Positions 30,301 through 58,492 of a stretch of 64,000 nucleotides of DNA are shown piece after piece. The notes under the pieces are model-generated. The model saw only the letters and a list, made by a program, of their open reading frames with translations. It was not told the DNA's origin and did not search any database. Numbering within the stretch: position 1 is the stretch's first letter; each line of letters opens with the position of its first letter. Position numbers and translations under genes: made by a program. This stretch comes from Pyropia yezoensis (taxonomy: Eukaryota; Rhodophyta; Bangiophyceae; Bangiales; Bangiaceae): the NCBI GenBank assembly GCA_009829735.1, contig CM020618.1, positions 7,903,119-7,967,118 of the forward strand, read 5' to 3'.

Positions 30301-30532
30301 GCGGCGGCGACGACGTGTACATCGAGACGACCCGCCGCCGCCATCACCGCCACCACCGCCGCCGCCGCCACCGCCGCCACCGCCGCCGCCGTCACGTCCC
30401 AGTCAGCCGCGTCCCCCCCCCCCTCCCCCCCCACCCCAGTCCCCCCTCCCTCCCCCAAGTCCTCCATCCCGTCGTTCACGATGCCATACACCGGCTCGTC
30501 GTCCGCCTCGCCTTGCGTCTCGTCCCACCCCC
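26404..30532. repeat. Left copy of a 4.1-kb sequence duplicated across the N gap
   Basis: Matches 31033-35169 from end to end. Differences seen are almost only lengths of C or G runs (for example the C tract near 27271 and that near 28823). The copy ends exactly at the first N. Confidence 0.9.
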
Positions 30533-34000: not shown

Positions 34001-35169
34001 GCGGCGGCGGCCCGACGCGCACCACCCCCGGTGGTGCGACCGCCACCGCCGCCCTGTGCACTTCGGCGAGTGAGGCTGTGACGCGGGCGGTGAGCCACGC
34101 GGCGGTGCCGGGGGTGGCCGCTTCCGCCGCGGCGGCCGCGCCGGCGGGGGGGGACCCGGCGGGGATGGGGCTGACAACCCACTCGTCTGCCCGGCCGGGC
34201 CGCCGCAACACGACGCGGGCGGTGGTGGCGGCGGCGGTGGCCGCCGCCGCCGCCGCCACATAAGTCGCGGGCCACGGGTGATATGCGCCGTCGACGGTGC
34301 CGCCGCCGCTCCTCCCCCCCATACCTCCCCCCCCCCCACCACCGCCACCTCCCCCCCACCACCACCACCACCACCACCACCACCACCGCCGCCGCCCCCA
34401 CCGCCCAGCAGCGTCGCCGGCGCCAGCGGCATCAGCGCGAGCGACGGCGGCGGGCAGAGCGGCACAGCGTCTGCAGCCGCCGCGGCGGCAGCGTCGGCGT
34501 CCGACCCGCCCGAGCTACCCCACCCCCCCCCCCCCCCCCCCCCCCTCCCACCCACCGACGCCCAGTCATCCTCGCTCCCCCCCCCGCCCCCGCCAGCATC
34601 GGCGTGCCAGCCGTGGCCAGGCGCACCCATCCCCCCTACCAGACGCCCCTGGCAATGACCGCTGGCGGCGGCGGCGGGCGCGCCCCCCCCCCCCCCCGCG
34701 GCCGCGGGCGGCGGGCCGCCCCCCCCGCGGCGGCGGGCCAGCGGGCGCCATCGTCGACGAGGAAGCCGTCGAGCGGGTCGGCCGCGGCGCGCCCACACCG
34801 CCACCGCCGCAGCTTGGCCGACCGCCCGCCCGCCGCCGCGGGGGGGGGGGGGGACGCGCCGCGGCCACCTGCCGACGGCCGCCGGGGCCGCCCGCCGGGG
34901 CGGCCGCGGCGGCCGCCTGCCGCGTGCCGCCGCGGCGGCGACGACGTGTACATCGAGGACGACCCGCCGCCGCCATCACCGCCACCACCGCCGCCGCCGC
35001 CACCGCCGCCACCGCCGCCGCCGTCAACGTCCCAGTCAGCCGCGTCCCCCCCCCCCCTCCCCCCCCACCCCAGTCCCCCCTCCCTCCCCCCAAAGTCCTC
35101 CATCCCGTCGTTCACGATGCCATACACCGGCTCGTCGTCCGCCTCGCCTTGCGTCTCGTCCCACCCCCC
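31033..35169. repeat. Right copy of the 4.1-kb sequence duplicated across the N gap
   Basis: Begins exactly at the first base after the N run and repeats 26404-30532; the offset drifts from 4629 to about 4637 because of homopolymer differences. The sequence continues beyond 35169 as unique DNA, as expected for the right-hand contig. Confidence 0.9.
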
Positions 35170-36251
35170 ATCGTCCCCACAAGCCCCCCCCCGGCGGTCT
35201 CCTCCCCCTCCAACGACGCCTCCCGTCGCGGCCACCGCCGCCGGAACGTCCCCTCCCGCCCCCGCCGTGGCCCCGCCGGGTGCGCCCCGCGTCCCCCACG
35301 GCGGAGGCGGCGGCGGCGCCCCCCCCCCCCCCCCCCCCGCGTCGCTGTCCCCACCCCCCGCGGCGGCGGCGGCGGCGCAGCCAGCCCCCCCCCCCACCTG
35401 GCTGCCGCCGCCGCCCCGGGCGGACCCATCGTGCGCGTCCAGAGAGCCGACGGCGGCACCCTCCCCCCACCCCGCCCCCCCGCGGGGCCATCCCACAGGA
35501 GCGCCTCGAGCGCGCGCGCCGCCGCCGCGTCCGCCGCCGGGTCCACCGGCGCCGCCGCTCCGTCCGCAGCGTCGCCGCCGGCCGCGGCCGCCGCCGTCGT
35601 GGCCGCCGCCGTCGCTGCCTTGGCCGCCGTCCGCGCGCGCAGCTCGGCGCGGGCAACGTCCACCTCGGTGGCAAGTGCGGCCGCCGCGGCGAGCCCCAGC
35701 TCCCCCCCACCCCCACCCCCACCCCCACCCCCATCCGCGGCGCCGGCCTCGCGCTCCTGCCCGATCGCCGCCGCGGCGACAATCAAAAAGTTGGACAGCG
35801 CGCTCCGCCGGACGCCCGCGTCGCCCGCGGCGGCGGCGAGCGCCGCCGCCCGCCGGTACGCGGCGAGCGGCTCGGCGACGGGCACCGCGCCCGCACGTAC
35901 CGGGCCGATGGAGGCGGTGGCGGCGGCAGCGGCGGTGGCGGCGACAGGTCGGCCCAGCGGCCGCCGCCACCTCTGCCACCACCCCCCCCGCCGCAACCAC
36001 CCGCCCCCGTCGCCGGCGACGGCACCCACGGCACACCCCGACGCGGGGTCTCGCACGCGCCCGCCGGATACGCGGTCTGCGGTGGCGACGGCGGCGGCGG
36101 CCGCGTCGTGGGCGACCGCGCCACCGGCAGCAGCCCCCCCCCCCCCCCGGGCAACCTCCCCTCCGCTCACCACGCCCTCCCCCCCCACCGCGCCCACCGG
36201 CGGCGGTGGGCGCGGCGGCGCCGACGCGGCGGGCGCCGAGGCCGCCGCCAC
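32534..36251 (-). CDS. Large Ala/Gly-rich protein with helical-repeat and leucine-rich-repeat-like regions, frames disrupted
   Basis: Minus-strand coding is supported by protein-like stretches separated by poly-Gly. From the N-terminal side: helical Ala-rich segments (35112-36251, including PLAAYRRAAALAAAAGDAG and SALSNFLIVAAAAIGQERE), an acidic stretch at about 35165-35090 (WDETQGEADDEPVYGIVNDG), an SEDDWASVGG segment near 34570, a folded-looking region near 34290-33900 (ARVVLRRPGRADEWVVSPIP), and a leucine-rich-repeat-like region at about 33670-32950 (VVDLTGANVADGDVGRLLDA, LRVLRLAANVRLTDATAARL, FSALADLDFSATGVSAGGF). An (Asp-Gly)n run, GDGNGDGDGDGDG, lies between repeats. Helical repeats, acidic linker, then C-terminal LRRs recall Tonsoku/TONSL, but this resemblance is architectural only. 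Frames change at poly-C tracts whose lengths differ between the two assembly copies, so base-level errors are likely. The left-hand assembly copy of the LRR part is at 27975-29060. Confidence 0.4.
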
Positions 36252-36302
36252 GGACGTGGCGGGCGCCGCCCAGCCGCCGCCGCCGCCTGCCGCTCACCGC
36301 GG

Positions 36303-37370
36303 TTAGGGGGGCCGGAGCCGCCGCCGCCGCTGCTGGTCGCCCGAGCGCCGTCGCCGGCGGCCGCGGCAGGCCGCCAGTCCGGGGCGGCGGGCCAGCCCGC
36401 CGTGGCGGCGGCCGGCCGGCCAGGCCCGCCACCGCCACCACCGCAGCCGCCGCCGTTTCTCGCTGACCACCCGTGGCGGCCTTTTAGGCCCCTCAGTCCC
36501 CACCAACACCGCCGCCACCACGGCGGGCGTCGGCCGCCACGGGCGGCTCACCCCCCCCCCACCGCCCCCCCCGCCTAACGGCCCTAGCGGGAGGCTCCTC
36601 CCCCCAGCGGCCGCCGCCCGCCTCGTTCAGAGGGGCGTCGCCGCCCCAGCGGCCAGCCGCCTCGGCCGCCGCCGCGGCCGGCCGCCATTGCAGCGACGTG
36701 TCCGCGCTCGCATTTGCTAGTACCGCAACGCCGCCCCGGCCGGGACCGCCGTGCTTTACCGCAAGTGAAGCGGCTAGGGGCAGCCGCCCGAGCGGCGGCG
36801 GCGGCGGCGACGACGACACGCCGCCGCCGCTGACGGCCGCCGCCACGGCCGCCGCCGACGGCGGCGGGCGCGCGAGTGGCGGGATGTCCCCGCCGCCGCC
36901 ACCCTCACGGCCGCCCCGTCCGCCGCCGCCACCCCGCCAGCCGCCACCTCACCCACCGCTGCGGCCGCTGCCCTTCGAGTGGGCGCCCGCCGCGGGCGGC
37001 CGCCACACCGCCCACGCGGCCTCGTCCGCGGCGGCCGCTGCGGCCACGCCCACGTCTCCGCCGCCGATCATCGCCGAATGCCGCCGCGGCGGCGGCGTGC
37101 CGCCACAGCCGCCACCGCTAGGGCTGCTTGCACCGCGCAGGTGGCTGCCGCCGCCGCCGCCGCAGCCGCTGCCGTTGTCGCCGCCGCCACGGGGCTGACG
37201 GCCGCCATTGCCGACCGCCGCGGCCGCTGCGGGCGACGCCACCTGCGACGCGGCCGGCGCGTACACGTACGCCTCGGCGGGCGGTCGCGGCCGTCGGACG
37301 CCGCCGCGGCCGCCGCCGCTTCCCGGGGGCAGGAATGGCGAGGCGCAAGTCCATTCACCCGGAGGAGAAA
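36303..37370 (-). other. Minus-strand coding-like sequence upstream of the large Ala/Gly-rich protein
   Basis: Pieces such as PLAASLAVKHGGPGRGGVAV and LANASADTSLQWRPAAAAAE (near 36780-36650) and EAYVYAPAASQVASPAAAAA (near 37290) have non-shadow composition on the minus strand. They probably belong to the N-terminal part of the large gene or to a neighbour. The start could not be placed. Confidence 0.3.
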
Positions 37371-37382
37371 AACCGCTGAGCG

Positions 37383-38742
37383 TCAAGGCGCATTTAACGC
37401 AACAGGAAGACGGGCAAAAAAGCCCTGCAGCGGCCGGCCCGCTCCAGTCAGCTCCGGGAGGTTCCGCAAAACCTGCCGCCGGGCCTCGCGATAGTGACCC
37501 TGAACAGACGCCAAAGACAAAGAAGCAAAAGCAAGAACGTGCGCAATACGGTCCGGGAGGTCGGGGTGGTGATAAGAGATGGTGCGCGCGGCATGCTTGT
37601 AGTCATTAAAAACGGGCTCTATGGCAGAGAAGTCGGGGGAGTACGGTGACAGTCGCAGACGATGCACACCGTTAATGTCCAAAATCATGCCCACCAGCGC
37701 AGTGTGCACAGAGGCGTTGTCATACACAAGGACACAATCGTCAGGCTGCTCCGCCCACGGCACACCCGGCACAAAAGCATTCATCCTGCGCACCAGGCTG
37801 ACACAAAAAAGGATAAAATCGTCGCCGTTCTGCGCAGGAGGAACCTCGTTAAACAGCTAGCTCTAGGATGCCACTTGTATACGACACAGCCACAGTAGAC
37901 GAAAACCTGGGCCGCACGCGAGGATCTGGTGCAAGGGCCTCCAGAGCTCTGCCAACTGGCGCCCGTCCACGGCGTCGAACCATGGCTGGGCCAGCGATGT
38001 GAGTCTCGTCTACGACGACAATGCACCGATCTGGAATGTCGAGGTAGAGCCGTCCAAACGCGGCCCGTCGCGCCGGGCACCGCTCCAACGCCAACCGCTC
38101 CACGCATTTCAGGGAATATCCAATGCTTCGCAGCATCGCGCTCAAGGTCGAAGATGACACGGGCCACGCCTCCTCCCAACCTGGTAGTTCCCCAAGCTTA
38201 CGAAAAATCGCCCCAATCTCCCACAGGAACATCTCCGGGTGAGAACGCACGATGTGGTCGAGCGCCACCAAAAAACGTTCGTTAAAAACCGCGGCATCTG
38301 CGTGTCGATTGTGGATGGCGTCGTCGTTCCACGGAGATCCGTGGCGCTCATAATTAGCCCACCACTGTTGCGCCGCCGACAGACTGCAGCCCACATGATC
38401 GGTAATGGTCTCCCAAGAGAGTCCTTGCAGACGATTCCGAATCACCTGCCAGCGTATCGCAATAGGAAACATGGGAGCTGGGTCAGGGAAAAACACCAGC
38501 TCCAGGTGTATGGGAGAAAAGCGAGATGGGGGCGGCATGCAAGGTGGAGCACAAAGCTGCATGTTCCATGCATCAGAGTGCTCATCTGATGTTTGTGGGA
38601 CACAAAACGCCATGTACGCGTACAGCTGATGTTCCGAGCCGCTGTACACCAGAGTAGAGAATGTTTTTGTAAATTTTGGTTTAGGCCGGAGAGCGCGTCG
38701 GGCCGCAGACAGGCTGCAGTGATGGAGCTCTGATGCCTTCAA
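37383..38742 (-). pseudogene. IS630/Tc1-superfamily transposase, broken by frameshift
   Basis: Two minus-strand frames. The first (38742-37849, true ATG uncertain) has a helix-turn-helix region (RLQGLSWETITDHVGCSLSA) and a further helical segment, then the first catalytic motif CIVVVDETHIAG. The second (37793-37383) has VYDNASVHTALVG (second Asp) and SPYSPDFSAIEPVFNDYK (Glu), with about 33 residues between. The YSPD-x-(N/S)-x-IE block is typical of IS630-related elements. The frame is lost near 37850-37860, next to an AGCTAGCT duplication. Terminal inverted repeats were not found, so element borders are unknown. It is unrelated in sequence to the Tc1-like element at 17.5 kb. Confidence 0.8.
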
Positions 38743-40200
38743 TTTGTGCGGATCCCACGGAGCTGAAGTTCTGGGTCGAGCTCTGGGAGTTCCAAGGTCT
38801 CGAGAGCCGAGCCGGACTCGGACCCTCGTCCGTGCACGATGCTGGTCTCAGAACTGAGTCATGTCGGAAGCCACAGCGGCCCGGGGCTCGGATCAATTTT
38901 TTTGCATCTGATGGCTGCTGCCTGTGTTGAACCACTCACAGGCCAGCGTCGCCTCTGAGACCAACGATAGGTGCTGCCTCCTCACGTTTTGTCCCTCATC
39001 TCTTGCTCACGTCGGTCGTCCAATCGGTTGATAGGAAGAGAAAATCATGTTCATTGTTCCTGGTCTGGCGGGCTCTCTATGCGACAAAGCAGCAGAGCTG
39101 TGTCAGACACTGTGTTCCGAATTATTCCAGTTATGTTCATCAGGTGTGTACCTCGGCAGCGTATCAGACGCCAGTATTGTTCATGTCAGACGACCATTTG
39201 CGGAATCAATTTCACGTCCGCGTCTCGTTTGCATCAAGTCCCGCGTCCATTTGACACGATGTTCTCACGTTCACCATGGCGACACATCCACTTTTTACTG
39301 GAAGCACAATAAGTAGTGCTGGTTGTGGGGGTCACGTGCTCCGCGATGGCCAGATCGCGGGCTTCCGGGGACCACTGGGCAAACCGTTTCCCGGGTTGCA
39401 ATGGACCGGTGAATTGGGCGAGGTGGTTCCGGTCCCTGTTTGCTAATATGGCGGCCCACGACCTCTGTGCGAGCCATGGTTGCTCGCGATGTGAATCGGA
39501 CGTCCCGACCGCGGCCATTCCCTGAAATCGGAGCGGGTCCTCCAGTCCGGGTTGTTCTCGGCTGCCGCAAACAGGGACCACGTTCCGTCCTTGTCATTGG
39601 TCAGTGCCGCCTGGGGGGCTGGCAAGCGACGTGGATGGTTGTGATTGAACAACTTGTGGAGCGTGTGCAGTCACGGGCACAGTCACACGTCCGACAGTGA
39701 GATCTTCTCATGGGGGTTCCGCACGAAAGACGGCTCGCTGAGCACCTCTCTCTCCGCGCCTCAAAAAGCGCTGCACTCGCCTACCCCTTGCCATGCGTCC
39801 GAGCGGGATGCATTCCCACACGCACTCCGCACTGCTTTCGTGTTGGTGGGCAGGCACACGCTGTGGCAAGGGTGTATCCCCACAAACGTATCCCCACAAC
39901 CGGTGGGCACCACCAGCGCACAGGATCCCCACGAGTACGAATCACACAGTGTCACAACTGGTCGTTCTCTGCATTCTCACCAGCCGGGACCACTGCGCCT
40001 CGTGTTTGCGGGAAAGCGCCGTGGGGGCTGCGCAGCATCATTTATTTCTTCATCTCACAGGAAGCCCATAACGTTTGGCACGCCACGTTTCCCGCGTTTT
40101 TGGGCAAGCAGGAGGCATCCGCGGTGACCACCGTCAGAGTTTGCCGGTCGTCTTTGCGGCCCGACGGCCTCAGTCGGCATCCCTGGCCTCTGGCTGCAGC
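38743..40200. other. Intergenic, moderate GC, no supported gene
   Basis: Composition is more balanced than in neighbouring DNA. ORFs are short and unrelated to known families. It contains the second copy of the 27-bp dispersed repeat (39285-39311). The right part is upstream sequence of the first H3 copy. Confidence 0.5.
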
Positions 40201-40206
40201 TATAAA
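40201..40206 (+). promoter_or_regulatory. TATA box of the first H3-variant copy
   Basis: TATAAA, in the context CAGCTATAAAGGC, lies 186 bases upstream of the ATG at 40387, followed by a C/T-rich leader. This region is not part of the tandem unit, so copy 2 lacks it. Confidence 0.55.
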
Positions 40207-40386
40207 GGCCCAGGATGGCGACCGTCCTCCCCCAACCAACCTGGTGGTCGCATCTATCCCCCAGGAGCCCACCCATTCGTGCACACTGTCGCGCTATACG
40301 TGCACACCGCTGTCCGCACCACTCTTTTATACCCCCCTCCCTCCCCGCCCGTCTGTCCACCCGTCTCCCCCTTCCCACCCACCGAC

Positions 40387-40764
40387 ATGGGCCGCGTGAA
40401 GAATGTGACGCCGCAGCACTGCCCGCCTTTCGTCGCCAAGACCAGGCGCAAGCCCACCGCTGCCGCGCGGCGCCGCATTCATGCCAATGCAGGCATTCGC
40501 ATGCCTGTGCGTCATTATCGCCCTGGCACCGTGGCTTTGCGAGAGATTCGTCACTTTCAGAAGCACCCCGGCCTTCTCATCCCTCAGGCGCCCTTCAAGC
40601 GCCTTGCTCGTGAGATCGCTGATAATGTCGCCACACCTGGCATGCGCTTCCAGGAGGCCGCCTTCTCGGCGCTGCAGGAGGTGGGGGAGCAGCACGTTGT
40701 GCAGCTTTTTGAGGACGCTGTGCTGTGCGCGTCCCATGCCAAGCGTGTCACCGTCACCCTCTAG
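40387..40764 (+). CDS. Divergent histone H3, CENP-A-like, copy 1, early stop
   Basis: 125 residues. The tail (1-42) is unlike canonical H3: no ARTKQ start and no K9/K27 contexts. The histone fold is clear: [17 protein letters not shown] (43-59), [16 protein letters not shown] (63-78), [13 protein letters not shown] (87-99) and [16 protein letters not shown] (108-122). Loop 1 (about 79-86) is one residue longer than in canonical H3, a hallmark of centromeric H3 (CENP-A/CenH3), which marks centromeric nucleosomes. The frame ends at TAG (40762-40764) where canonical H3 has the Lys of PKDIQLARRIRG; the next codons still read DIMLARRIRGRRD. The stop thus removes the C-terminal helix. In this copy read-through would run 16 codons past RRD to a TGA. 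Either a pseudogene, a truncated variant, or read-through; CENP-A identity is inferred from tail divergence and loop length. Confidence 0.8.
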
Positions 40765-41027
40765 GACATCATGCTGGCGCGGCGCATTCGCGGTCGTCGC
40801 GACCGAACCTGTGGTGGCGTTGTGAGTGCTGGCTGTGGGTGAGCATCGGTCTTGCCCGTCGCGGTGAACGTAACATAACTTTTTCCCTTGTCACTCATAT
40901 TCAGATTGACTCCCTGCTCTCCCACATGCATCCTCCGCCACCGCTCCCATTGCCGGCATCGAAGCCGGCGTCGTACAGTTCCGCCATCACCCCCGGCTCG
41001 CAGACATCCCCATTCTGCAGCGCTCGA

Positions 41028-42728
41028 AGCTCTTATATCTAATGCGACACCCGCCGCAGCCGTGGATGCCGGTGGCGGCCGTGCCAAAAACCCCGCCGCA
41101 GCCGCCACCGCGGCGACCACCGCGTCGTACGCCGCCACCGCCATTGCGGCGACCACCGCCGACAACGCCGTCGTCGCGGTGGCCAGGATGACCACCGCAC
41201 ACAAAAGTCGTCGCCGCCGCCGCCACAGCGACCACTGCCGGCGCGGCGGCGGCGACAACTACGAACACCTCCGCCGTCAAGACCGCCGCGACAACCACCC
41301 CACACCGGGACGCCGCCGCCGCCGCCACAGCGACCACTGCGGGCGCCACCGCGGCAACCACAGTGAAAAACGCCGCGGCGACCACTGCCGCCGGCGCGGC
41401 GACCGCCGGCGACATTGTCGCCACAGCTGCCGCCGCGGGGATCACCGCCCGCAACGCCGCGGCCGCCGCCGCCGTGGCGACCACCGCCGACAACGCCGCG
41501 GCGTCCACTGGTGCTGGCGCGGCGACCGCCGGCGAAATTGTCGCCACAGCTGCCGCCTCGGGGATCACCGCCCGCAACCTCGCGGCCGCCGCCGCCGCGG
41601 CGACCACCGCTGACAACGCCGCGGCGATCACTGGCGCCGGCGCGGCGACCGCCGGCGACATTGTCGCCGCAGCTGCCGCCGCAGTCGGCGTCCACCGCCG
41701 ACAACGCCTCCGCGGCCGCCGCCGATGCGACCACCGCAAACGACGCCACGCTTGCCGCTGCTTGGGCGACCACGGCGAATAAAGCCGCCGTCGTGGTGGC
41801 CGCAAAGATCACGGCAAGCAACGACGCCGCAGCCGTGGCGGCGGCCATCTCTGCCGCCACCGCCGTGGCGACCGCCGGCCACATTGCCGCCGCACACGCC
41901 GTCGCGGCGACCACCACCGACATCGCCGCCGCTGCCGCAGTCCCGGCGGCCTCTACCGGCATCATCGTAGTGACCTCTGTCAACAACAACGCCGCCGCCG
42001 CCGTCGCCGCGGCGGCCATGTCTGCCGCCAACCCCGTGGCGACCGCCGGCCACAGTCGCGGCGACCACCACAGACATCGCCGCCGCTGCCGCTGTCCCGC
42101 CACGGCGACCACCGTCAACAACTTCGGCACAGCCGCCGCCGCGGCCAGCACTGCCGCTAACGACGCCTCCGGGCCTGCGACGGCGAACTCCGTCACCGAC
42201 GCCCCTGTGGCTACGGCGGACAACGCTGCTGCTGCTGCTGCGGCGGCGACCACCGCCACCGCCCCCTCTGCGACCGCACACAGCAGCGTGGCCCCCGTCG
42301 CCGCCGCGGCGACCAAGGCTGACAACGCGACGGTCCCCCCGGCTCCGTCGAGTGAGTGTGGGGGCAGCGGACGGGGGACGCAAGCCGCGACCGCTGCCGC
42401 GGCGTTTGCGGCAGTCGCACGGTCAGTCAAAAGCCGGTACAAGGCGGCGCCGCGAGCGTCCTCGTGTCTGCGCGCGGTTTGGCACATGTGCTGCAACATG
42501 TGCCTGAAGCACCTGCCCGCATTTTGCGGCCAAGTCGCCTGGGGGCAGCAATCCGACGCCCCTGGCTCTCGAGTGCAATTGAAAACGAACTCGGTAGGGA
42601 CGCCCGACGTCCATCGACGCGGATGGGTGCCGTGCCTTTTCTCCGCTGCATTTCCGATTCGTCACGTCAGTAGTCGAGCGCCGTGGTCAACCCCTGTTGA
42701 ATCGAAGAATCGCGTTTGGCACTTCTGA
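41028..42728 (+). other. Ala/Thr-rich candidate coding region in unit 1
   Basis: Directly downstream of H3 copy 1. An Ala/Thr-rich reading can be followed through three plus frames in turn (near 41030-41190, 41200-41700 and 41670-42728). The last part has a more ordinary C-terminus (RSVKSRYKAAPRASSCLRAV, then CCNMCLKHLPAFCGQVAW) ending at TGA 42726-42728. The minus strand is also open over 41039-42499, as expected for GCC/GGC repeats. The frame changes are shared by both tandem units, so they are not random sequencing errors. The gene is either already broken before the duplication or contains introns not recognised. Confidence 0.3.
41401..41769 (+). repeat. 123-bp (41-codon) tandem repeat, 3 copies, unit 1
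   Basis: Copies start at 41401, 41524 and 41647. Each begins GACCGCCGGCGA(C/A)ATTGTC and reads TAGDIVATAAAAGITARN-type sequence in one frame. The period is a multiple of three, which suggests selection on protein, although the wider frame is broken. The same array is at 44874-45242 in unit 2. Confidence 0.85.
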
Positions 42729-43169
42729 TTGGACAGTCAGGCAAAAACTACGGCAGATATGAAGAACAGGCACAGGGTCTACTTGTTCGTGTCTGCTGGT
42801 GGCGCGAGGCGAGGCCTCCACGTGGTTGGATGAGTGGTCACGACGGAGGGTCGTGGAGGGTCGCGACCCTCTTGCTGACGTCGTGTGCATGTATCGCCCT
42901 GTTCGGATTGTGCATCTTCGTTGTGCAGCTGGGGACGTTGGGACCGGAGCTGCGAAGACGCTTTGCCACACGCAGAAGTTGCGAATCAAGAACTAGCGGT
43001 ACGCGTGTCCGGTGTCCTCAGTGGCTCATTCACCGTCTCTTGTGTGTGGGCGCGATCTGGTGCGCGCGGTGCGTGTCCGCGGCGCTCTGTTGCGAAGCTG
43101 TGTCTGACGGATCATGTGTTCTGTATTTCCATGTCACGCTATTTCTCTTGTCGGTTCAGGAAAGCTGTC

Positions 43170-43859
43170 ATGACGTTTGGACACGCGGAGTCTCCGGGGC
43201 CGCCCAGTGCCGCCGGCCCCACCGGCGTCATCTATGATGCAGGTGATGCGAGTAACGCGCTGGGGGGTGCTGTCCTTCGTCATCGTCACGTCGGCGATAT
43301 GAACGACCCCGCGGATGCGACTAGTAGAGCTGCAGATTGTGATGATGTGCTCGTCAGCGGATATGACGCGGGCTCCAGTGTGATTGGGGGTGGCGCAGGG
43401 CGCCCTGAAGGCGGCCAGGACGCTCCGGAAGTTGCCGCTCACGGCGGCCTCCTCGCTCGTGGTGCCGACGGCGCAGGTGGTGCGAATGTCGGTGCCGCTG
43501 AGCGTCCCTGCGATGGCAACGGTCGCGCTGGCAGCCGTGGCCCTGCGGCATATGCTTGTAGTGACCGTGGCGCGGCCGGCGAGAATAGTGGCGACGCCGG
43601 CGGCGTTAGTGGCGGAAATGCTGGTCCTGCTGGCAATGGCGGCGGCGATTACGCCGGCGGTGTCGATGCTCGCGAAGCAGGCTGTGCCGACCGCGGAAGT
43701 GCTCGTGGCGGCGGCGGTGGAGGCGGCGGCTATCCGCGTGGCGGTCACGCTTGTGGCGGTGGCAACGGAGGCGACGGCAATTTCCGTGGCGGCGGTGATG
43801 GCGGCAGTGCATATGCTGGGCGTGTTGGAGGTGCAGGCGGCAGCTATTCGCGTGGCGAC
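43170..43859 (+). pseudogene. 5' fragment of the Gly-rich zinc-finger/RS gene, truncated by the tandem duplication
   Basis: 230 codons from ATG 43170, just after a CAG (TCGGTTCAG) that could be a 3' splice site. It encodes an acidic Asp/Ala segment and then a Gly-rich region with [21 protein letters not shown] repeats. The frame is cut at the duplication junction and runs into H3 copy 2. The full-length relative starts at 46643. Confidence 0.65.
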
Positions 43860-44237
43860 ATGGGCCGCGTGAAGAATGTGACGCCGCAGCACTGCCCGCC
43901 TTTCGTCGCCAAGACCAGGCGCAAGCCCACCGCTGCCGCGCGGCGCCGCATTCATGCCAATGCAGGCATTCGCATGCCTGTGCGTCATTATCGCCCTGGC
44001 ACCGTGGCTTTGCGAGAGATTCGTCACTTTCAGAAGCACCCCGGCCTTCTCATCCCTCAGGCGCCCTTCAAGCGCCTTGCTCGTGAGATCGCTGATAATG
44101 TCTCCACACCTGGCATGCGCTTCCAGGAGGCCGCCTTCTCGGCGCTGCAGGAGGTGGGGGAGCAGCACGTTGTGCAGCTTTTTGAGGACGCTGTGCTGTG
44201 CGCGTCCCATGCCAAGCGTGTCACCGTCACCCTCTAG
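43860..44237 (+). CDS. Divergent histone H3, CENP-A-like, copy 2, early stop, fused upstream to Gly-rich ORF
   Basis: Identical to copy 1 except Ala82 to Ser. It has the same in-frame TAG (44235-44237). Here the sequence after the TAG reads DIMLARRIRGRRD and then meets TGA at the position where canonical H3 ends, so only this copy would give a normal-length C-terminus on read-through. Upstream the TATA region is gone: the ATG is preceded directly by Gly-rich coding sequence in the same frame. Translation from the Gly-rich ATG at 43170 would give a 355-residue fusion. Whether it is expressed depends on the Gly-rich gene's promoter inside unit 1. Confidence 0.75.
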
Positions 44238-44500
44238 GACATCATGCTGGCGCGGCGCATTCGCGGTCGTCGCGACTGAGCCTGTGGTGGCGTTGTGAGT
44301 GCTGGCTGTGGGTGAGCATCGGTCATGCCCGTCGCGGTGAACGTAACATAACTTTTTCCCTTGTCACTCATATTCAGATTGACTCCCTGCTCTCCCACAT
44401 GCATCCTCCGCCACCGCTCCCATTGCCGGCATCGAAGCCGGCGTCGTACAGTTCCGCCATCACCCCCGGCTCGCAGACATCCCCATTCTGCAGCGCTCGA

Positions 44501-46201
44501 AGCTCTTATATCTAATGCGACACCCGCCGCAGCCGTGGATGCCGGTGGCGGCCGTGCCAAAAACCCCGCCGCAGCCGCCACCGCGGCGACCACCGCGTCG
44601 TACGCCGCCACCGCCATTGCGGCGACCACCGCCGACAACGCCGTCGTCGCGGTGGCCAGGATGACCACCGCACACAAAAGTCGTCGCCGCCGCCGCCACA
44701 GCGACCACTGCCGGCGCGGCGGCGGCGACAACTACGAACACCTCCGCCGTCAAGACCGCCGCGACAACCACCCCACACCGGGACGCCGCCGCCGCCGCCA
44801 CAGCGACCACTGCGGGCGCCACCGCGGCAACCACAGTGAAAAACGCCGCGGCGACCACTGCCGCCGGCGCGGCGACCGCCGGCGACATTGTCGCCACAGC
44901 TGCCGCCGCGGGGATCACCGCCCGCAACGCCGCGGCCGCCGCCGCCGTGGCGACCACCGCCGACAACGCCGCGGCGTCCACTGGTGCTGGCGCGGCGACC
45001 GCCGGCGAAATTGTCGCCACAGCTGCCGCCTCGGGGATCACCGCCCGCAACCTCGCGGCCGCCGCCGCCGCGGCGACCACCGCTGACAACGCCGCGGCGA
45101 TCACTGGCGCCGGCGCGGCGACCGCCGGCGACATTGTCGCCGCAGCTGCCGCCGCAGTCGGCGTCCACCGCCGACAACGCCTCCGCGGCCGCCGCCGATG
45201 CGACCACCGCAAACGACGCCACGCTTGCCGCTGCTTGGGCGACCACGGCGAATAAAGCCGCCGTCGTGGTGGCCGCAAAGATCACGGCAAGCAACGACGC
45301 CGCAGCCGTGGCGGCGGCCATCTCTGCCGCCACCGCCGTGGCGACCGCCGGCCACATTGCCGCCGCACACGCCGTCGCGGCGACCACCACCGACATCGCC
45401 GCCGCTGCCGCAGTCCCGGCGGCCTCTACCGGCATCATCGTAGTGACCTCTGTCAACAACAACGCCGCCGCCGCCGTCGCCGCGGCGGCCATGTCTGCCG
45501 CCAACCCCGTGGCGACCGCCGGCCACAGTCGCGGCGACCACCACAGACATCGCCGCCGCTGCCGCTGTCCCGCCACGGCGACCACCGTCAACAACTTCGG
45601 CACAGCCGCCGCCGCGGCCAGCACTGCCGCTAACGACGCCTCCGGGCCTGCGACGGCGAACTCCGTCACCGACGCCCCTGTGGCTACGGCGGACAACGCT
45701 GCTGCTGCTGCTGCGGCGGCGACCACCGCCACCGCCCCCTCTGCGACCGCACACAGCAGCGTGGCCCCCGTCGCCGCCGCGGCGACCAAGGCTGACAACG
45801 CGACGGTCCCCCCGGCTCCGTCGAGTGAGTGTGGGGGCAGCGGACGGGGGACGCAAGCCGCGACCGCTGCCGCGGCGTTTGCGGCAGTCGCACGGTCAGT
45901 CAAAAGCCGGTACAAGGCGGCGCCGCGAGCGTCCTCGTGTCTGCGCGCGGTTTGGCACATGTGCTGCAACATGTGCCTGAAGCACCTGCCCGCATTTTGC
46001 GGCCAAGTCGCCTGGGGGCACCAATCCGACGCCCCTGGCTCTCGAGTGCAATTGAAAACGAACTCGGTAGGGACGCCCGACGTCCATCGACGCGGATGGG
46101 TGCCGTGCCTTTTCTCCGCTGCATTTCCGATTCGTCACGTCAGTAGTCGAGCGCCGTGGTCAACCCCTGTTGAATCGAAGAATCGCGTTTGGCACTTCTG
46201 A
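44501..46201 (+). other. Ala/Thr-rich candidate coding region in unit 2
   Basis: Copy of 41028-42728, with one Gln-to-His change near 46022 from the G/C difference. The same frame changes and the same stop are present. Confidence 0.3.
44874..45242 (+). repeat. 123-bp tandem repeat, 3 copies, unit 2
   Basis: Duplicate of the array at 41401-41769, displaced by 3473 bp. Confidence 0.85.
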
Positions 46202-47342
46202 TTGGACAGTCAGGCAAAAACTACGGCAGATATGAAGAACAGGCACAGGGTCTACTTGTTCGTGTCTGCTGGTGGCGCGAGGCGAGGCCTCCACGTGGTT
46301 GGATGAGTGGTCACGACGGAGGGTCGTGGAGGGTCGCGACCCTCTTGCTGACGTCGTGTGCATGTATCGCCCTGTTCGGATTGTGCATCTTCGTTGTGCA
46401 GCTGGGGACGTTGGGACCGGAGCTGCGAAGACGCTTTGCCACACGCAGAAGTTGCGAATCAAGAACTAGCGGTACGCGTGTCCGGTGTCCTCAGTGGCTC
46501 ATTCACCGTCTCTTGTGTGTGGGCGCGATCTGGTGCGCGCGGTGCGTGTCCGCGGCGCTCTGTTGCGAAGCTGTGTCTGACGGATCATGTGTTCTGTATT
46601 TCCATGTCACGCTATTTCTCTTGTCGGTTCAGGAAAGCTGTCATGACGTTTGGACACGCGGAGTCTCCGGGGCCGCCCAGTGCCGCCGGCCCCACCGGCG
46701 TCATCTATGATGCAGGTGATGCGAGTAACGCGCCGGGGGGTGCTGTCCTTCGTCATCGTCACGTCGGCGATATGAACGACCCCGCGGATGCGACTAGTAG
46801 AGCTGCAAATTGTGATGATGTGCTCGTCAGCGGATATGACGCGGGCTCCAGTGTGATTGGGGGTGGCGCAGGGCGCCCTGAAGGCGGCCAGGACGCTCCG
46901 GAAGTTGCCGCTCACGGCGGCCTCCTCGCTCGTGGTGCCGACGGCGCAGGTGGTGCGAATGTCGGTGCCGCTGAGCGTCCCTGCGATGGCAACGGTCGCG
47001 CTGGCAGCCGTGGCCCTGCGGCATATGCTTGTAGTGACCGTGGCGCGGCCGGCGAGAATAGTGGCGACGCCGGCGGCGTTAGTGGCGGAAATGCTGGTCC
47101 TGCTGGCAATGGCGGCGGCGATTACGCCGGCGGTGTCGATGCTCGCGAAGCAGGCTGTGCCGACCGCGGAAGTGCTCGTGGCGGCAGCGGTGGAGGCGGC
47201 GGCTATCCGCGTGGCGGTCACGCTTGTGGCGGTGGCAACGGAGGCGACGGCAATTTCCGTGGCGGCGGTGATGGCGGCAGTGCATATGCTGGGCGTGTTG
47301 GAGGTGCAGGCGGCAGCTATTCGCGTGGCGGTCACGCTCGTG

Positions 47343-47996
47343 GCGGTTGTGGGGGTTTACCGCACCGCTCGGACTAGGGGCATCCCCCTTCAGGGGGGGG
47401 CGGGTCGTGGCGACCTCTGCCCCTGACCAATCGGGGGCAGGAGGGGGTCGCTCCTCCCTCGGGACGGGCAAGCCACGTCATCCTCGCTGGATCCCCCCAT
47501 GAATGGGGGGGGAGGAGATAAGATAATATCGGGTAGAGCGATTACGCCCGCCCGATTGGAATTGGCCTTCTGGCCAGTGAAGGGATGTTACCTAGGGCGG
47601 GCTAGTTCCGCCTCAATCTGGCCGAGATTTAGTGAGATTCCTCCACTGAGCGTGTTTTGCGTGGAGAGATGTGTTGGAGGGTTCTGCGTGTTTTGATTGG
47701 GTGTTTAGTGTAGGGAGTGTTGGCCCGCACTCCGGGGTCCCACAGCGGGCCCTGGACCGGCGGGCCAAAGAGGGATATCTGCGCGTGGGGCTGTGCCCGT
47801 TGCTTTCCCCTCACAAAAAATCAACCTTGCGTTACCCTCGTGTTCCCCGTCCCGGACGCTTCCACCTTCGCGTGGAGCTCTTCGTTCCGGCGGTTCTGAC
47901 TCTAGGGTTTATACCCCGGGTTCCCCACCATTCTCCTTCAGGAGGATAAGGTACCCCGTTGGTGTGGGCTTACGCCAAGATAACCACCAAAGCGGT
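47343..47996. mobile_element. 644-bp LTR-like insertion with 5-bp target-site duplication
   Basis: The insertion is 47348-47991, flanked by GCGGT at 47343-47347 and 47992-47996. Removing it restores both the frame and the 114-bp repeat spacing of the host gene. It starts TGTGGGGG and ends CCACCAAA, carries no long ORF, and has no detectable internal domain. Size and 5-bp duplication suit a solo LTR, but the end is not a clean CA, so another small non-autonomous element is possible. Confidence 0.7.
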
Positions 47997-48126: not shown

Positions 48127-48490
48127 TGTAGCACAATAAGGTATCCGCTACACGTCCACTCTCAGGGAACACTCACCACGGGAGATCGGCACCAACGTCA
48201 CCGGGAGGCCAAGGTTGCTGTCCTTTGAGCGCAAGCCACGGGACCAAGATGGGAGCCCAAATGGGAGGGGTTTGTTGTTCTGCCCTGGCCGGCGGTGGAT
48301 TCGCCGCCGGCCCCCTCGTTATAAGCCCTCGGAGACACTACTAACTACCCTCCACCCCAAGATGCAAGTCCCTCTGGTCATACGTAACTTATAGATACCG
48401 TGACCAGTACGGACTCTCAAATTGAAAGCCAAGGATTAGAAGTAGCCCCCCTAACATTAGGGTCACAATACGGCCGACCATATTGCTACA
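48127..48490 (-). repeat. 3' LTR of the Ty3/gypsy element
   Basis: 364 bp, from TGTAGCA to TGCTACA, a perfect 7-bp terminal inverted repeat. Equal in length to the other LTR. Confidence 0.97.
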
Positions 48491-48503
48491 TACCCCCCCT
48501 TAG
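48491..48503 (-). other. Polypurine tract of the Ty3/gypsy element
   Basis: The minus strand reads CTAAGGGGGGGTA immediately before the 3' LTR, where plus-strand DNA synthesis is primed in these elements. Confidence 0.65.
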
Positions 48504-49052
48504 ATTCGGCCCGTCCTCGGGTCGAGTTGCATTCGTGTTACCGAATGTAAGTGGGTCGCGTGACCGTTTACCAGTCGGGTGGGGCTTTGCGCCCTGTCGC
48601 GACAGACACCCCTTTTGGAGGTTGCCTGAGGGGGGTGCCCCCCTTTGTGTGGTACACACACGATCCGTTTTCCGGACCGTTAATTTCCCGATGCGGGCTT
48701 CTGTTCACGACCCCCCTTTCCGAGGGGTGGTGCAAGCGGATCCGCCACCAGGTGTCTGGTGGTAGGGGGGCCCCTCTCGTGTAGACGATTGAGTGGGGGG
48801 CGGTTGGGGGTGACCCCCCTTGATTGCCCCGTGTGGGGGGGGCGTGGCTCCGGTCCAGGTGCCTGGGTGGAGCGCCCTCGTAGCTCGGCTGGCGTGGGTC
48901 GTCCCGCGCTGCCGTATCGCTCGTCCTGAGCTGTGTCGTTATAAGCGCGGGTGCCCGCGCTTCCCTGGCTCGTCCGCGCGAGCGTTCCTCGTACCGGGTC
49001 GAGCCGGTTGCGGCTTTCTGGCACGGGACGCCCCTGCTACCCCGGTTTCACC

Positions 49053-51469
49053 ATGTCGGACCCCCAGGTACCCGGGGGCGAGGACGACCTCCTGCTTGAG
49101 GAGGAGGAGAAGGTGATGCAGGACGACGTTCCCGTCTCCGCCACCGCTGCCGAGTGCTTCTTGGCGAGCTCGTCGGAGGACGAGGACCACCGGGTGACCG
49201 TTCGTGTGGCCCCGGAAGGAGCGCCGGGCGGATTGTCGTCCGTGTGCAGCGGCACGACGGCTCCGTCGGGTGGCGGACCACCGCGTGCAGCGGTGGCCTC
49301 TACCGCTACTCCTCCGGCGGCCAGGATGGCTTCTGTCGCCGGTGCCGGCGCGACTCTACCTCAAGACGGCGTCGCCGGCGTGGCGGATGGTCGTGGCCGC
49401 TCCCCAGCCCAGCCGGCGGGTCAAGACGGCGCGGGTGCCCGCTCGGTGGGTGTGTCCGCGTCGGCGGGTCAAGACGGCGCGGGTGCCCGCCCGGTGGGTG
49501 TGTCCGCGTCGGCGGGTAACGGGTCTACCCCTGCCGCCCCCGTGGTGCCCACGTCGGGCCCGGGTGGCGGCGATGCTCTGCCCGCGGTGCTGCGGACGCT
49601 TGGTGGTCAAGAAATGTCTACCCCGATGGCAGTGGACTCCGGGAACTACTCCGGGCGGGCGCCCGCCCTTCTTCTTCCTCCTCGGCCCCGTGCCCCTCCG
49701 GCACCGGTTCATCTGCCAGTGGGGCATCCCCCGGCGCCCCCGATTCTTCCTGGTCCTGCCCGGGTTGCCCCGTTGGGTGGCGGCGTCGCCGTGGCGGCGG
49801 GTCAACCCGCCATGTCGATGTCCGATTTGGTGGCTCGGGTTCGAGGCATGACTGTGTAAGAGTCGATGGAGTCCGCTGGGCGGATGCGGGTGGACTTCCA
49901 CCAGCCGCGTTTCCCTGGAGAGACCTCCCGGCGCGTCAAGGTGGACCCGAGTTGGGAGCGGGAGTTGGTGCGGCTGGTCAACCAGCCGAGCGCGGTCCGA
50001 GTGGAGCATCATTGGATCCTGAGCCAGCCGGACGACCGGCATGCGCAGCTCTGGCGCACCCGGATTGGGCGGGGTGAGGTGTACCTCGACTCCGCCTTCG
50101 GGATATGCGACTTGATTGCCCCCGCGTTGCCGCGGGAGGTTGACTACCCGGCTAGTGCCCGGGGGATTGCGGCGGCGGCGGAGCCGGTTGCGTTTGGGGA
50201 GACGGTGGGTGATACCGGCCGGTATCCCGGGTTCGAGTGCTTCCCGGGGGTATCCCCGTACCTGACGTTGACGGCTCCGTACCCGCCTATGGCGGGGTTG
50301 AAGTCAGCGTCGAGCTGGCGACGCAACCATGGTGTCATGGCGGATGCGTTCCGCACCGATATAACGTGTGCGTTGCAGACCGGTAACGGTCGCGCGCCGG
50401 TGTACACTGCCGTGCGCCCGCCTCTGTGGCAGGAAGGGGGGAACCCGCCCCTGCTTTCCGGTTTGACACCGGCTCCTGCCTCCGATACTTCGGGAGTGTG
50501 TTAGCCTCCCGGCCGGTCCACCCGTTGCAGGGTACCTTCACCCTTGAGGTTACCCTCGGGCAGGCTTCCTCCTTCTTGCTGTCCGTCCGCCGGCAGGGGC
50601 GCCTGTTTCATCTTCCGACGGGTGTCCGTCGGCACATCGAGCAGTTGGGCGTGGACATGATAGCCGCCAAGACCGGGTTGGCCCGGGAGTTCGAGGCTCT
50701 GCTGGCTGTTCACGATGCCGTGAGCTGAGCTGGGGTGTTGGCCCTTCCCTCGTACCGGGACCCGCCGGCTGGGGCTTCCCCCTTGCCTCGTCACTCGTTG
50801 CGTATCCGGCGTACTCAGCCGGGTCAGCCCAATTGCCATGGGTGGGCGTCCACCGAGGCTGTTGCTGACCTGGGTATTCCCATGGTTATCCATGACCCTC
50901 TTCAGGCCCTTGCCCCGTGGTTCGGTAACCCGATACCGGCGGCGGTTGGCCGTCGTCCCCGAGAGTGGGGCTCTGCGGGTGGGGAGCGTGAGGTGTCCCG
51001 TCGTCGGGCCGAGCCCCGCCGGGTTTACGGTGAGGCCCCTTCAGTAGGGTCCTACCGGGCCTCGTATCAGGTGCCACCGGCTCCGGTGGTAGCCGTGTCG
51101 GCTCCTCTGGCTCCTCTGGCTGCGCCAGTGTCCCCTCCCGCCCCTGTCATACAAGACGGGAGTCCCCGTCTCTGGTATGAGGGCGTTGACGCCCTTGTTG
51201 CCCGCGCAATGCGGGAGAGTCTCTCTGTTAGCTGGGGGGATATCCCCCCAGGTGCTGCGCTGGTTGGGTCCGCGCGTTGCTTCGGTGGCGTGCTTGACCG
51301 CCTCCAGACAGCTCTGGAGGACGTGGAGGCTGGCCGCAGCACCCTCGTTCAGCTATGCACCGAGTTAACTCGGGTGATTGACCGTCGTGAGATTGCCGAC
51401 CGGTGGAGCATGGAGGTATACGCGCTTACGCGTGAGTGGCTTCCCTCGGGCAGTGGGTCTACCCACTGA
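49053..51469 (+). pseudogene. Antisense coding-like region inside the Ty3/gypsy element, unknown product
   Basis: On the strand opposite to pol, between pol and the 3' LTR. Frames: 49053-49859 (acidic N-terminus EDDLLLEEEEKVMQDD, then Pro/Ala/Ser-rich, with a near-perfect SVGVSASAGQDGAGAR repeat), continuing in the same frame after one TAA to 49866-50504 (protein-like VDPSWERELVRLVNQPSAV and VYLDSAFGICDLIAPALP), then a shift to 50426-50728 (TFTLEVTLGQASSFLLSVRR, IEQLGVDMIAAKTGL), then 50735-51469. Together they would make one protein of roughly 800 residues broken by two stops and a frameshift, decay comparable to the sense ORFs. No domain recognised: no zinc knuckle, protease or RT motifs. 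It could be an extra element gene or a captured host gene. Confidence 0.5.
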
Positions 51470-51919
51470 GGAGGGCTATTGTTTGTGAGGGAGAGGGCCC
51501 CGGTAAACCTTATGGTGGCCGGGTAGTAGTGAGTATAAACTCATCCCCCGCTGGGGTGTTCGCATGCTACCAATGCCTGCCATTGGGGAGTACCCCGTCT
51601 GACTTAGTCGTGGCTTCCCTTGGCTCTTTCCCGCCTCCCCCAACCCATCCTGGTTGGTTAATACTCATGAAGGTTAACCTTCTCGGTCCGTCACTTGCCT
51701 CCTGGCTGAAGGTTTACCTTGGTGTAAGCCTTAGGTTACTTTGAGATTATCGGAGTTAGTCATCTCCTTCAAGTAAACTTGTAAAAGTCAGTAGCTTACT
51801 TAGGTTGCCTAAGTCCGCTCCAACTTAGTGAACCTCAGTCTTGACGAGTCCATGTGACACCCTACTTAGTAGGTACAAGCCTCACCCCCCAACAGCCGAA
51901 GTCGGTGTCGGTTGGGTTG
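51470..51919. other. Non-coding spacer of the Ty3/gypsy element
   Basis: AT-richer sequence between the ends of the convergent antisense ORFs and pol. It probably carries 3' ends for one or both. No motif identified. Confidence 0.4.
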
Positions 51920-52664
51920 TTACAGTAGGCGTCGTCGCCTCATGTAAGGCATGAGGAGTTGGCGGGGTATATTCGCCGCCTGTTCCCAGGTGGGTGAGTC
52001 GTATCCGACCCACATCACCTTGACGTACCAGGGTCCTGGTAGGTCCGGGTTGGTGTGTCCGATCACGCTCTCTACTTGGTATGGAATCCCATCCGGCCCC
52101 ACCGGGTCGTCTGACCGGTGGGTAGTAAGAGCTTCATGTAGCAACCCAGCCGGTACCGGCTGAGGCTGTTCCGGCTTCGGAGCAGGTGTCACATCATTGA
52201 GATTGATGCGTTGTATCTCCGTATCGGAGTGCAGGATTACAGAGTGATCATCTCTGTGTAGGATCTGGTACGGTCCCTTGACCGGTTGCATAAGCTTGTT
52301 CCCTCGGAACTTCTGGTGTCTGATATAGACCCAGTCACCTGTTACCAGGGTTGCGTTGCGTACCCGTAACCGGGCGTCAAAGTTCTTCTTGTATCGAAGT
52401 TGTGTACGGTCAAGGGCACCCTTGAGCTTCGGTATCATCCACGATAGCTTGGCCAACCAAGCTAAGTGGATCCGTTCGGCCGGTCGGCCCTTCGTTATAT
52501 CTTACCGAGTGCATCTGCCAGGTGGCAGCGTCAGGTTACCGACGCCCATCGGCATGACCCATTCCAGGGGGGCAATGGTGGTACTTCGGTGGGGCCTGGC
52601 ATTGTATGCCAGGGTCAAGACGGACAGAAACCTGTCCCACGTCTTCGTGTGCTCCGCCACGTAG
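51920..52664 (-). pseudogene. Integrase C-terminus and chromodomain of the Ty3/gypsy element
   Basis: After the TAA, integrase-like sequence (TWDRFLSVLTLAYNAR) continues with another stop, then an open 178-codon frame (52456-51920): the SH3-like VTGDWVYIRHQKFRGNKL block and a C-terminal chromodomain pattern (YQVESVIGHT, YVKVMWVGYDSPTWEQAAN). A chromodomain on the integrase defines chromoviruses and directs insertion to particular chromatin. Confidence 0.85.
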
Positions 52665-52666
52665 CA

Positions 52667-54097
52667 TTAGAGCATCTTCACGATGGTGCGGTTGAACCGC
52701 TCCACTTGCCCGTTGGATTGCGGGTGGTAGTCGGATGCCCGACGGGGTTCGATGCCGAAAATGCCCAGGACCTTAGTGCAGAATGCTGACGTAAGGTTTG
52801 CTCCGTTATCGGAGAGGAGTTGCTTCATTACTCCGTAAGCACTGATCCAGTGGTCAACCACTGCGTTCATGATGGTATATGCCGTATCATTCGGGATGGC
52901 TGCCGCTCGGGACAGCTTAGTGAATCGGTCAGACATGACCAGGATGTACCTGTTCCCTTCTTCCGTTACCGGAAGCGGTCCGAGTATGTCGATAGCAACT
53001 TTCTCGTTGGGTCCATCCGGGGGGAACAGTTTCATAGCGGATGCCCGCCTATGAAGACTTATGCGATTCCGTGCGCACGGGTGGCATCCCCGCACGTGGT
53101 CGATTACGTAGACGGCCATTGCTGGCCAGTAGAAGAACCTTCGCATTGCTGCGAACATGCGCGAACTCCCCGGGTGTCCGGCTGTGGGGTTCTCGTGTTC
53201 TCGCTCCATGACGGCCTGCCGTAAGGACACGGGAACCACGACCAGATGTCGTCCATCGGCGGGTGCCCGCCGGTATATGAGTCCGTCTTCATTCTCGGAG
53301 AAGATGCCGGCCGTGCCGGCCAGGAGGTTAGCGCGATGACGTCTACAGTCATCGTCCTTGGCCTGTGCCTCGCGGAAGTCCGCGAGGGTCAACGGGCACG
53401 CAAGGTGTGCCATGGTATGGTCATCCATACCTTGGGTAGCATTACCCACCATGCACACCGGTACCACCGGGATGTCTTCGTCCACCTGTCGGGTATCCCC
53501 GCTCGGGGTATCGAGTCGCGACAGCGCGTCCCCCAGATGATGGGTGGAGCCGGCCTTATATATGGTCCGGTAGTCGTGCTCGCCCATCTTCAGCCTCCAC
53601 CGGGATAGCCGACCGTGGATGTCGGAATCCTTGTCACCAAGGTTGAGAAGCCATCGTAAAGGTTCGTGGTCGGACCTTACGATGAACCTGGAACCTTCCA
53701 GGTATGGCCGGAGCAGTTGCACTGCCCATATGACTCCGAGGCACTCGCGCTCGGTGGCACTATAGTTACGCTCAGCCGGGTTGAGTGTCCGGCTGAAGTA
53801 CCCTACCGGATGTAGGTCCGGGATAGCATTATTGGTATCGATGATGGTCTCTCCCTGTAGCAGGGTGCATCCCACTTGGGTGTCGCAGGCGTCGACGTCG
53901 ATGACGAAGGTCCCGCGTCCATGCGGCAACGCAAGCACGGGTGGGGCTAGCAGGGCTTTCTTGAGCAGCTCGAATGCCTCTCCCTCGCTGGGCGAGGGAG
54001 GTTGGAGTACCTTTGGCAAGGCACTGCTCGTCAGAACCGTTAACGGTTTGGCTACACGAGCGAAGTCCTTGACGAACCGTCGGTATACGTTGCACAT
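52667..54097 (-). CDS. RNase H and integrase part of the Ty3/gypsy pol
   Basis: A single 476-codon open frame. It starts in the RT connection (CNVYRRFVKDFARVAKPL), then the RNase H domain (FVIDVDACDTQVGCTLLQ, YSATERECLGVIWAVQLLRP, HHLGDALSRLD), then the integrase: an H-x-H...C-x2-C zinc module (REHENPTAGHPGS ... CHPCARNR) and the DDE core (VAIDILGPLPV, LLSDNGANL, HPQSNGQVERFNRT). It is cut by TAA at 52665-52667. In-frame integrase sequence resumes beyond it, so the open frame is a fragment of a larger polyprotein. Confidence 0.92.
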   Translation of the reverse strand: MCNVYRRFVKDFARVAKPLTVLTSSALPKVLQPPSPSEGEAFELLKKALLAPPVLALPHGRGTFVIDVDACDTQVGCTLLQGETIIDTNNAIPDLHPVGYFSRTLNPAERNYSATERECLGVIWAVQLLRPYLEGSRFIVRSDHEPLRWLLNLGDKDSDIHGRLSRWRLKMGEHDYRTIYKAGSTHHLGDALSRLDTPSGDTRQVDEDIPVVPVCMVGNATQGMDDHTMAHLACPLTLADFREAQAKDDDCRRHRANLLAGTAGIFSENEDGLIYRRAPADGRHLVVVPVSLRQAVMEREHENPTAGHPGSSRMFAAMRRFFYWPAMAVYVIDHVRGCHPCARNRISLHRRASAMKLFPPDGPNEKVAIDILGPLPVTEEGNRYILVMSDRFTKLSRAAAIPNDTAYTIMNAVVDHWISAYGVMKQLLSDNGANLTSAFCTKVLGIFGIEPRRASDYHPQSNGQVERFNRTIVKML

Positions 54098-54111
54098 CCC
54101 CAGGAAGCTTT

Positions 54112-58475: not shown

Positions 58476-58492
58476 CCGCTGCTGCTCCACCA
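58476..58492 (-). other. Primer-binding site of the Ty3/gypsy element
   Basis: Two bases inside the 5' LTR the minus strand reads TGGTGGAGCAGCAGCGG. It starts with TGG, the complement of a tRNA CCA end. The priming tRNA was not identified. Confidence 0.6.

Follow-up and report, generated by a model that had tools for sequence, protein, structure and literature searches.

A 64 000 bp stretch of the genome of the red alga Pyropia yezoensis (GCA_009829735.1, contig CM020618.1, positions 7,903,119 to 7,967,118; hereafter the window) carries two tandem copies of a gene for a histone H3-like protein, the second of which lies in frame with a glycine-rich (Gly-rich) open reading frame (ORF). The arrangement probably represents a tandem duplication within a decayed giant transposon of the Tc1/mariner type (IS630 superfamily), which carries a divergent H3 of its own. 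Comparison with related copies elsewhere in the genome shows that this large DNA transposon, termed here family A, carries the duplicated H3 and Gly-rich ORFs as cargo. The window copy extends from 19635 to beyond 64000; a nested transposon and a retrotransposon break it up, as does the tandem duplication. The original prediction, made from the letters of the window, described a recent tandem duplication with an in-frame junction, and both of these stand, but the host setting, in which both genes are transposon cargo, was missed.

A family of giant transposons carrying histone H3

A protein search of the genome (107.5 Mb; three large contigs of 43.59, 34.33 and 29.39 Mb) yielded 53 H3-like matches. 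Eleven of these, including the two window copies, were at least 94% identical and were spread over three chromosomes; with a twelfth, frameshifted copy this gave ten family-A loci outside the window, which were read and compared with it. The left end of the element was sharp in all ten loci, 1.1–1.25 kb upstream of the H3 ATG. The common left end, TA followed by TGGTGCTTTTCCC or TGGTGCTTTTCCCAAAAATGGCCACATCGGTGTGGAACGCAACC, was exact over its first 21 bases in eight loci, with one mismatch in another and four in the last. The right end was the inverse of the left end plus TA in the three of these copies that were followed end to end by sequence, and the TA target duplication was present at both ends of all three. 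The inverted ends are ~45 bp long, as measured by eye, and the three copies are ~15.0 kb, ~14.5 kb and 23.1 kb from end to end.

A 23 bp pattern of the terminal inverted repeat (TIR), allowing up to three mismatches, gave 51 + 54 matches genome-wide, compared with 0 + 0 for the reversed control. Among the matches listed, many were paired ~0.7 kb apart (for example C1:22765526-22766263) and resemble miniature inverted-repeat transposable elements; short non-autonomous relatives therefore exist.

The gene order in the fullest copies is inverted end, H3 (139 amino acids), an Ala-rich low-complexity region, a gene with Gly-rich, C2H2 zinc-finger and serine/arginine-rich (SR-rich) parts, a DDE transposase and inverted end. 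One complete copy contains an H3 that has lost its start codon, an Ala/Gly low-complexity stretch, a gene for a Gly-rich protein in which an SR-rich tract accompanies the zinc-finger domains zf-C2H2_jaz (1.3e-11) and zf-met (1.8e-11), and a transposase of 344 amino acids (DDE_3, 1.6e-12; HTH_23, 4e-11); a minus-strand ORF in this copy had no Pfam match. Residues D155, D253 and E287 of the transposase were invariant in ten aligned sequences, and its relatives comprised 74 proteins ranging from 99% to 40% identity. Between copies, the ratio of non-synonymous to synonymous substitution rates (dN/dS) was 0.16–0.36 for the transposase and 0.52–0.70 for the zinc-finger part. The corresponding values for the Gly-rich part and the minus-strand ORF were 0.70–1.32 and 0.59–1.43, and these two may therefore not be constrained coding sequence.

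The element shares with Tc1/mariner (IS630) transposons the TA duplication, the inverted ends and a transposase with DDE_3 and helix-turn-helix domains. Tc1/mariner elements are usually 1–3 kb in size; the present element differs in being ~15 kb and in carrying extra genes. D253 and E287 of its transposase have 33 residues between them, the canonical spacing at this place (DD34E/D) being 34.

The 23.1 kb copy (c2_10.57, C2:10574454-10597541; loci L012, L022 and L023) has an internal ~7.5 kb tandem repeat (99.7%), by which its transposase is duplicated. Tandem repeats of this long, internal kind are a recurrent feature of the giant H3 elements.

Apparent retention of the H3 gene

A full H3 frame of 139 codons was present in eight of the 12 family-A copies; one copy had lost its start, one was frameshifted and the two in the window had a premature stop. 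The H3 proteins of a second subfamily, B (loci L018 and L020), are 61–63% identical to the whole family-A copies, and the L020 frame has a stop. The H3 gene of L018 lies 2.3 kb before a related right end and that of L020 lies 2.9 kb after a related left end (3 mismatches). Comparison of A with B gave dN 0.30 and dS 0.90, a ratio of ~0.33 (Fisher p 4e-7 on rounded counts); the B copies compared with each other gave a dN/dS of 0.11/0.12, with no constraint visible.

Association of H3 with the transposase was assessed using 28 of 118 transposase matches (at least 50% identity, second pieces of the same place excluded) and 20 hits assigned to the H3 family from the H3-like matches in the genome. 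For 11 of the 20 hits (two of the 11 being the window tandem pair), a same-strand related transposase lay no more than 60 kb downstream, compared with 0.75% of random positions; ten of the 28 transposase matches were the nearest partner of an H3 hit, and an eleventh lay in the same element. An H3 N-terminal fragment (44 amino acids, E 9e-14) was found 1.1 kb before a 67% identical transposase, with a right end 6 kb beyond the fragment (C3:24711906-24718017). A second, weaker fragment (28 amino acids, E 5.1e-5) has a left end on one side and, 20.5 kb away on the other, a transposase of 70% identity (C2:25140146 to 25116628). Outside this genome, proteins P0002 (86%), P0012 (68%) and P0019 (60%) keep the special N-terminus of family A. 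P0001 contains the family-A protein and P0223 reads, by eye, like the L018 protein throughout; because of this identity both are probably from the same species.

The element family seems to keep its own H3 variant through the divergence of its subfamilies, because most family-A frames are full and because subfamily B, with related ends, also carries an H3 at a dN/dS well below one. A single capture of H3, rather than two, would account for this pattern. Several observations weigh against retention. Of the 28 transposase matches, 17 had no assigned H3 hit. A related transposase was missing from the neighbourhood of nine of the 20 H3-family hits, and no transposase was found in the 10 kb stretches at L018, L020 and L021. 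One of the two fragments that link H3 to divergent transposases is the weak one, far from its transposase. Within family A the H3 dN/dS against the reference copy was noisy (0.22–2.04) and not clearly below one, and two independent captures from an unseen or lost host H3 lineage would also yield a low ratio between A and B. The chromatin role proposed below for the element H3 is hypothetical.

A real possibility, somewhat short of even, is that a captured host H3 variant hitchhikes passively and has no role for the element, as in the fungal hAT transduplications (PMC6710886 and PMC3538342, from the available text of both). The one-by-one decay of the copies (start loss, frameshift, premature stop), the transposase matches that lack H3 and the many short TIR pairs too small to hold it are as expected for such cargo. 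Retention of the H3 coding sequence between A and B and the H3 fragments upstream of the 67% and 70% identical transposases argue against it. Nor was a near-identical donor outside the element found: the 94–100% matches were the window pair and element copies, and the canonical host H3 genes are 55–56% identical to family A, a point limited by L021 and three short fragments that were not placed in any element.

Tandem duplication and fusion ORF in the window copy

The features of the window copy are listed in Table 1. Direct comparison of 40383-43857 with 43856-47330 gave a tandem period of 3473 bp and eight mismatches (40630, 40804, 40807, 40852, 42548, 43261, 43335 and 43713), a divergence of 0.23%, in agreement with the two 3473 bp units and seven or eight differences first reported. 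The unit starts 4 bp upstream of the H3 ATG (40387), and for this reason the sole TATAAA-type 7-mer within 40001-40387, at 40201, lies outside the unit and was not copied; the loss of the TATA region from copy 2 is therefore borne out. The ORF 43131-44237 is open across 368 codons, and the second H3 ATG does follow the Gly-rich frame without a stop.

Table 1. Positions of the family-A element, its duplicated genes and its insertions within the window
Feature	Position	Strand	Description
Family-A left end: TA, TIR and first ~130 nt	19635..19767	+	TIR with 1 mismatch at 19637; element nt 1-130 96% identical to 19637-19767
Nested ~19.5 kb transposon with TIRs, of a different family	19768..39311		Element 19770-39309 with TA on both sides; inverted ends TTGTGCTTCCAGTAAAAAGTGGATG; inserted 130 bp inside family A
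Family A resumes: promoter region, H3, Ala/Gly-rich region, 3473 bp tandem	39312..47347	+	Pieces match full copy c3_11.32 (element nt 132-5244) at 94-96%
H3-like ORF, copy 1	40387..40764	+	125 codons to premature TAG; frame open beyond the lost TGA (40804); Pfam Histone 8.2e-23
Fusion ORF	43170..44237	+	From inner ATG 43170; 355 codons, 230 Gly-rich + 125 H3
Junction of tandem units	43856..43859	+	2 bp microhomology CG (43856-43857), by direct comparison
H3-like ORF, copy 2	43860..44237	+	Identical premature TAG; usual TGA kept at 44277; Pfam Histone match
Gly-rich ORF, copy 2 (from inner ATG)	46643..47377	+	Shortened by the insertion at 47348
644 bp insertion	47348..47991		Flanked by GCGGT; perhaps a solo long terminal repeat (LTR)
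LTR retrotransposon	48127..58857	-	LTRs 48127-48490 and 58494-58857 (96.2%); 5 bp duplication CGACG; RNase H and integrase domains
Family A resumes: rest of Gly-rich gene, continuing past the window	58858..64000	+	4638 bp at 93.7% identity, followed by 493 bp at 95.5%

An assembly artefact, in which the tandem is really one unit, appears quite unlikely. The very high identity of the units and the presence of two further long tandem repeats at ~99% in the same repeat-rich setting (26404-30532/31033-35168 in the nested transposon, and the 7.5 kb repeat within c2_10.57) would fit an artefact, but the eight differences do not cluster, the units are distinct in the TGA/CGA state at one of them, and the junction is clean, with its short microhomology.

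Both window H3 copies have a premature TAG at codon 126 (40762-40764 and 44235-44237). Beyond it the H3 frame reads DIMLARRIRGRRD up to the TGA in copy 2, which is lost in copy 1. The TAG must predate the duplication since it is common to both copies. P0001 matches the family-A protein at 100% over the part that contains it, and in a structure model of P0001 (mean predicted local distance difference test score 62.9, core mostly 70–85) the last predicted helix comprises residues 125–134 in H3 numbering. The TAG therefore removes this helix, and the window copy lacks a complete histone fold. Reading of the TAG as a sense codon was rejected, as other family-A copies have a sense codon at this position; an 18 nt GT..AG intron ending at the TAG was rejected by eye, as it would delete the conserved KRVTV strand.

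The remainder of the window element is also broken. Its Gly-rich gene is interrupted by the 644 bp insertion and the LTR retrotransposon. Its transposase (C1:7967076-7968105, starting at ~63958 of the window) is divided between two frames, and the second of its two pieces contains a TAA. By offset, the zinc-finger and SR-rich regions fall at ~59.7–61.1 kb of the window; the zf-C2H2_jaz and zf-met domains themselves were found in c3_11.32. The uninterrupted site of the nested insertion is visible in an intact family-A copy.

The LTRs of the retrotransposon differ by 3.8% and the tandem units by much less, so that, if a clock is assumed, the retrotransposon seems to have inserted before the duplication took place. 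On the same assumption, the two divergences suggest that the Gly-rich gene was already interrupted at the time of the duplication. The duplication came after the H3 truncation and would have joined the H3 frame to a broken Gly-rich frame by chance. The proposal that the fusion forms an unusual chromatin protein is unlikely to hold for the window copy, given the shared premature TAG, the cut Gly-rich gene and the broken transposase. Because the shared TAG removes the last predicted helix of the histone fold, the Gly-rich/H3 fusion ORF is most likely a by-product without function in a dead element copy.

Nature of the H3 variant

The canonical tail of H3 (ARTKQTARKS...AARKSAP) was absent from the family-A protein, in which neither the ARTKQTARKS nor the AARKS(AP) motif was found. 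With a canonical query, four host H3 genes matched at 88–89% and family A at 58–60%. Against solved structures, the best 60 of 176 sequence matches were all named H3 and none CENP-A. The best 50 of 1199 fold matches were nucleosome or histone-octamer entries, a weak test, as the rows are entry titles; the only CENP-A title among the fold matches listed was 3wtp, of which the matched chain E was H3.3 in the sequence search. The extra loop-1 residue of the family H3 occurs also in ARTKQ-tailed H3 proteins (P0063 and P0056), and LFEDT reads LFEDA in the family H3, which we take to be a CENH3-like feature.

These sequence and fold searches place the family H3 with ordinary H3, and the protein is therefore best described as a divergent H3 variant; the centromeric type first assigned to it is not supported. 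That the fusion works as a centromeric H3 whose N terminus is newly extended by Gly-rich sequence, as its open frame, divergent N-terminal tail and LFEDA might suggest, is highly improbable given that the premature TAG deletes the last predicted helix in both copies, that they lie in a broken transposon copy, that the best sequence and fold matches are H3 and that family members are dispersed across three chromosomes.

A viral origin of the H3 was also considered: viral contigs were scanned with two peptide patterns taken from the H3 family alignment, and the 150 pattern matches included no relative. The four near-canonical host H3 genes form two pairs in opposite orientation, C1:39752845/39861090 (108 kb) and C1:2075055/2082500 (7 kb). 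A further dispersed H3-like group with near-equal scores lies at C1:20995977, C1:20992071, C3:9791194, C3:21774542, C3:26418854 and C2:8386721, and a second at C1:31509045, C3:2803394 and C3:15586843. Both groups are 47–49% identical to the canonical H3 query (38–49% over both searches) and may be mobile H3 families.

Comparison with known elements and possible role

Transposon-borne H3 genes have been described in fungi. In Pyrenophora tritici-repentis, the available text of PMC3538342 reports an H3-like gene, H3L, between the TIRs of a hAT transposon in 26 near-identical copies, neither H3 nor CenH3, in forms of 5.6 kb and 2.3 kb and with a recent expansion. The present element is alike in that its H3 lies between the TIRs of a DNA transposon; it differs in its Tc1/mariner-type transposase, TA duplications, ~15 kb size, several cargo genes and divergent subfamilies. 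In Pseudocercospora fijiensis and relatives, hAT elements captured H3 and reached hundreds of copies in one genome; all but the original are inactivated by repeat-induced point mutation, the target-site duplication is 8 bp and the source was an H3 transcript or retrocopy (PMC6710886, available text). Multiple copies of a transposon-borne H3 in one genome are common to both cases, whereas the H3 described here is only 55–56% identical to canonical host H3 and has a whole frame in eight of 12 family-A copies. Neither the hAT transposase nor the 8 bp duplication of the fungal elements was found here, the element having DDE_3 and a TA duplication.

Oversized multi-gene DNA transposons are known from red algae, in the form of the giant En/Spm (CACTA) elements of Chondrus crispus, of 16–20 kb with 4–5 ORFs (Kojima 2013, as cited in PMC6431247), and giant En/Spm elements of red algae are mentioned also in the available text of PMC12477816. 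Their transposase belongs to another superfamily, and the word 'histone' does not occur in the available text of PMC6431247. No report of histone-carrying transposons in red algae was found among the search results listed from an open-access library, which is not proof of absence. The present element differs from prior H3-carrying transposons in transposase class, in being a ~15 kb multi-gene element, in the divergence of its H3 and in an apparent long retention across subfamilies.

A possible role can be outlined. The element would make an H3 variant able to enter nucleosomes, and the tail of this variant lacks the canonical motifs that surround K4, K9 and K27 and bear silencing marks, among others. 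The chromatin of the element might thereby stay permissive, so that expression or transposition can proceed. The H3 gene of the window copy is truncated. That a red-algal lineage of giant Tc1/mariner-type transposons encodes such a nucleosomal H3 as an anti-silencing device is a proposal that we advance tentatively and consider unlikely. Few host genes are as tightly constrained as those for histones, and a retained divergent H3 would suggest that mobile elements can gain by supplying parts of the nucleosome. Taken with the hAT elements of fungi, it suggests that unrelated transposons have recruited H3 more than once, and element-owned histones against silencing become a testable question. In red-algal genomes, transposon genes may be present among the H3-like genes that are counted and among the candidates for CENH3.

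Other features of the window

An Rfam scan of the window gave nothing at gathering scores, and a tRNA search of it found none. The nested TIR transposon contains a decayed transposase relative at 37500-38412 (-), in two pieces 33% and 37% identical, and its own 4.1 kb tandem repeat, the 26404-30532/31033-35168 repeat mentioned above, at 99.2%. The order of RNase H followed by integrase in the LTR retrotransposon is presumably Ty3-like. Immediately to the left of the H3 element, a 636-codon frame at 17581-19488 (-) contains HTH_Tnp_Tc3_2 and DDE_3 domains and represents another Tc1-like transposase.

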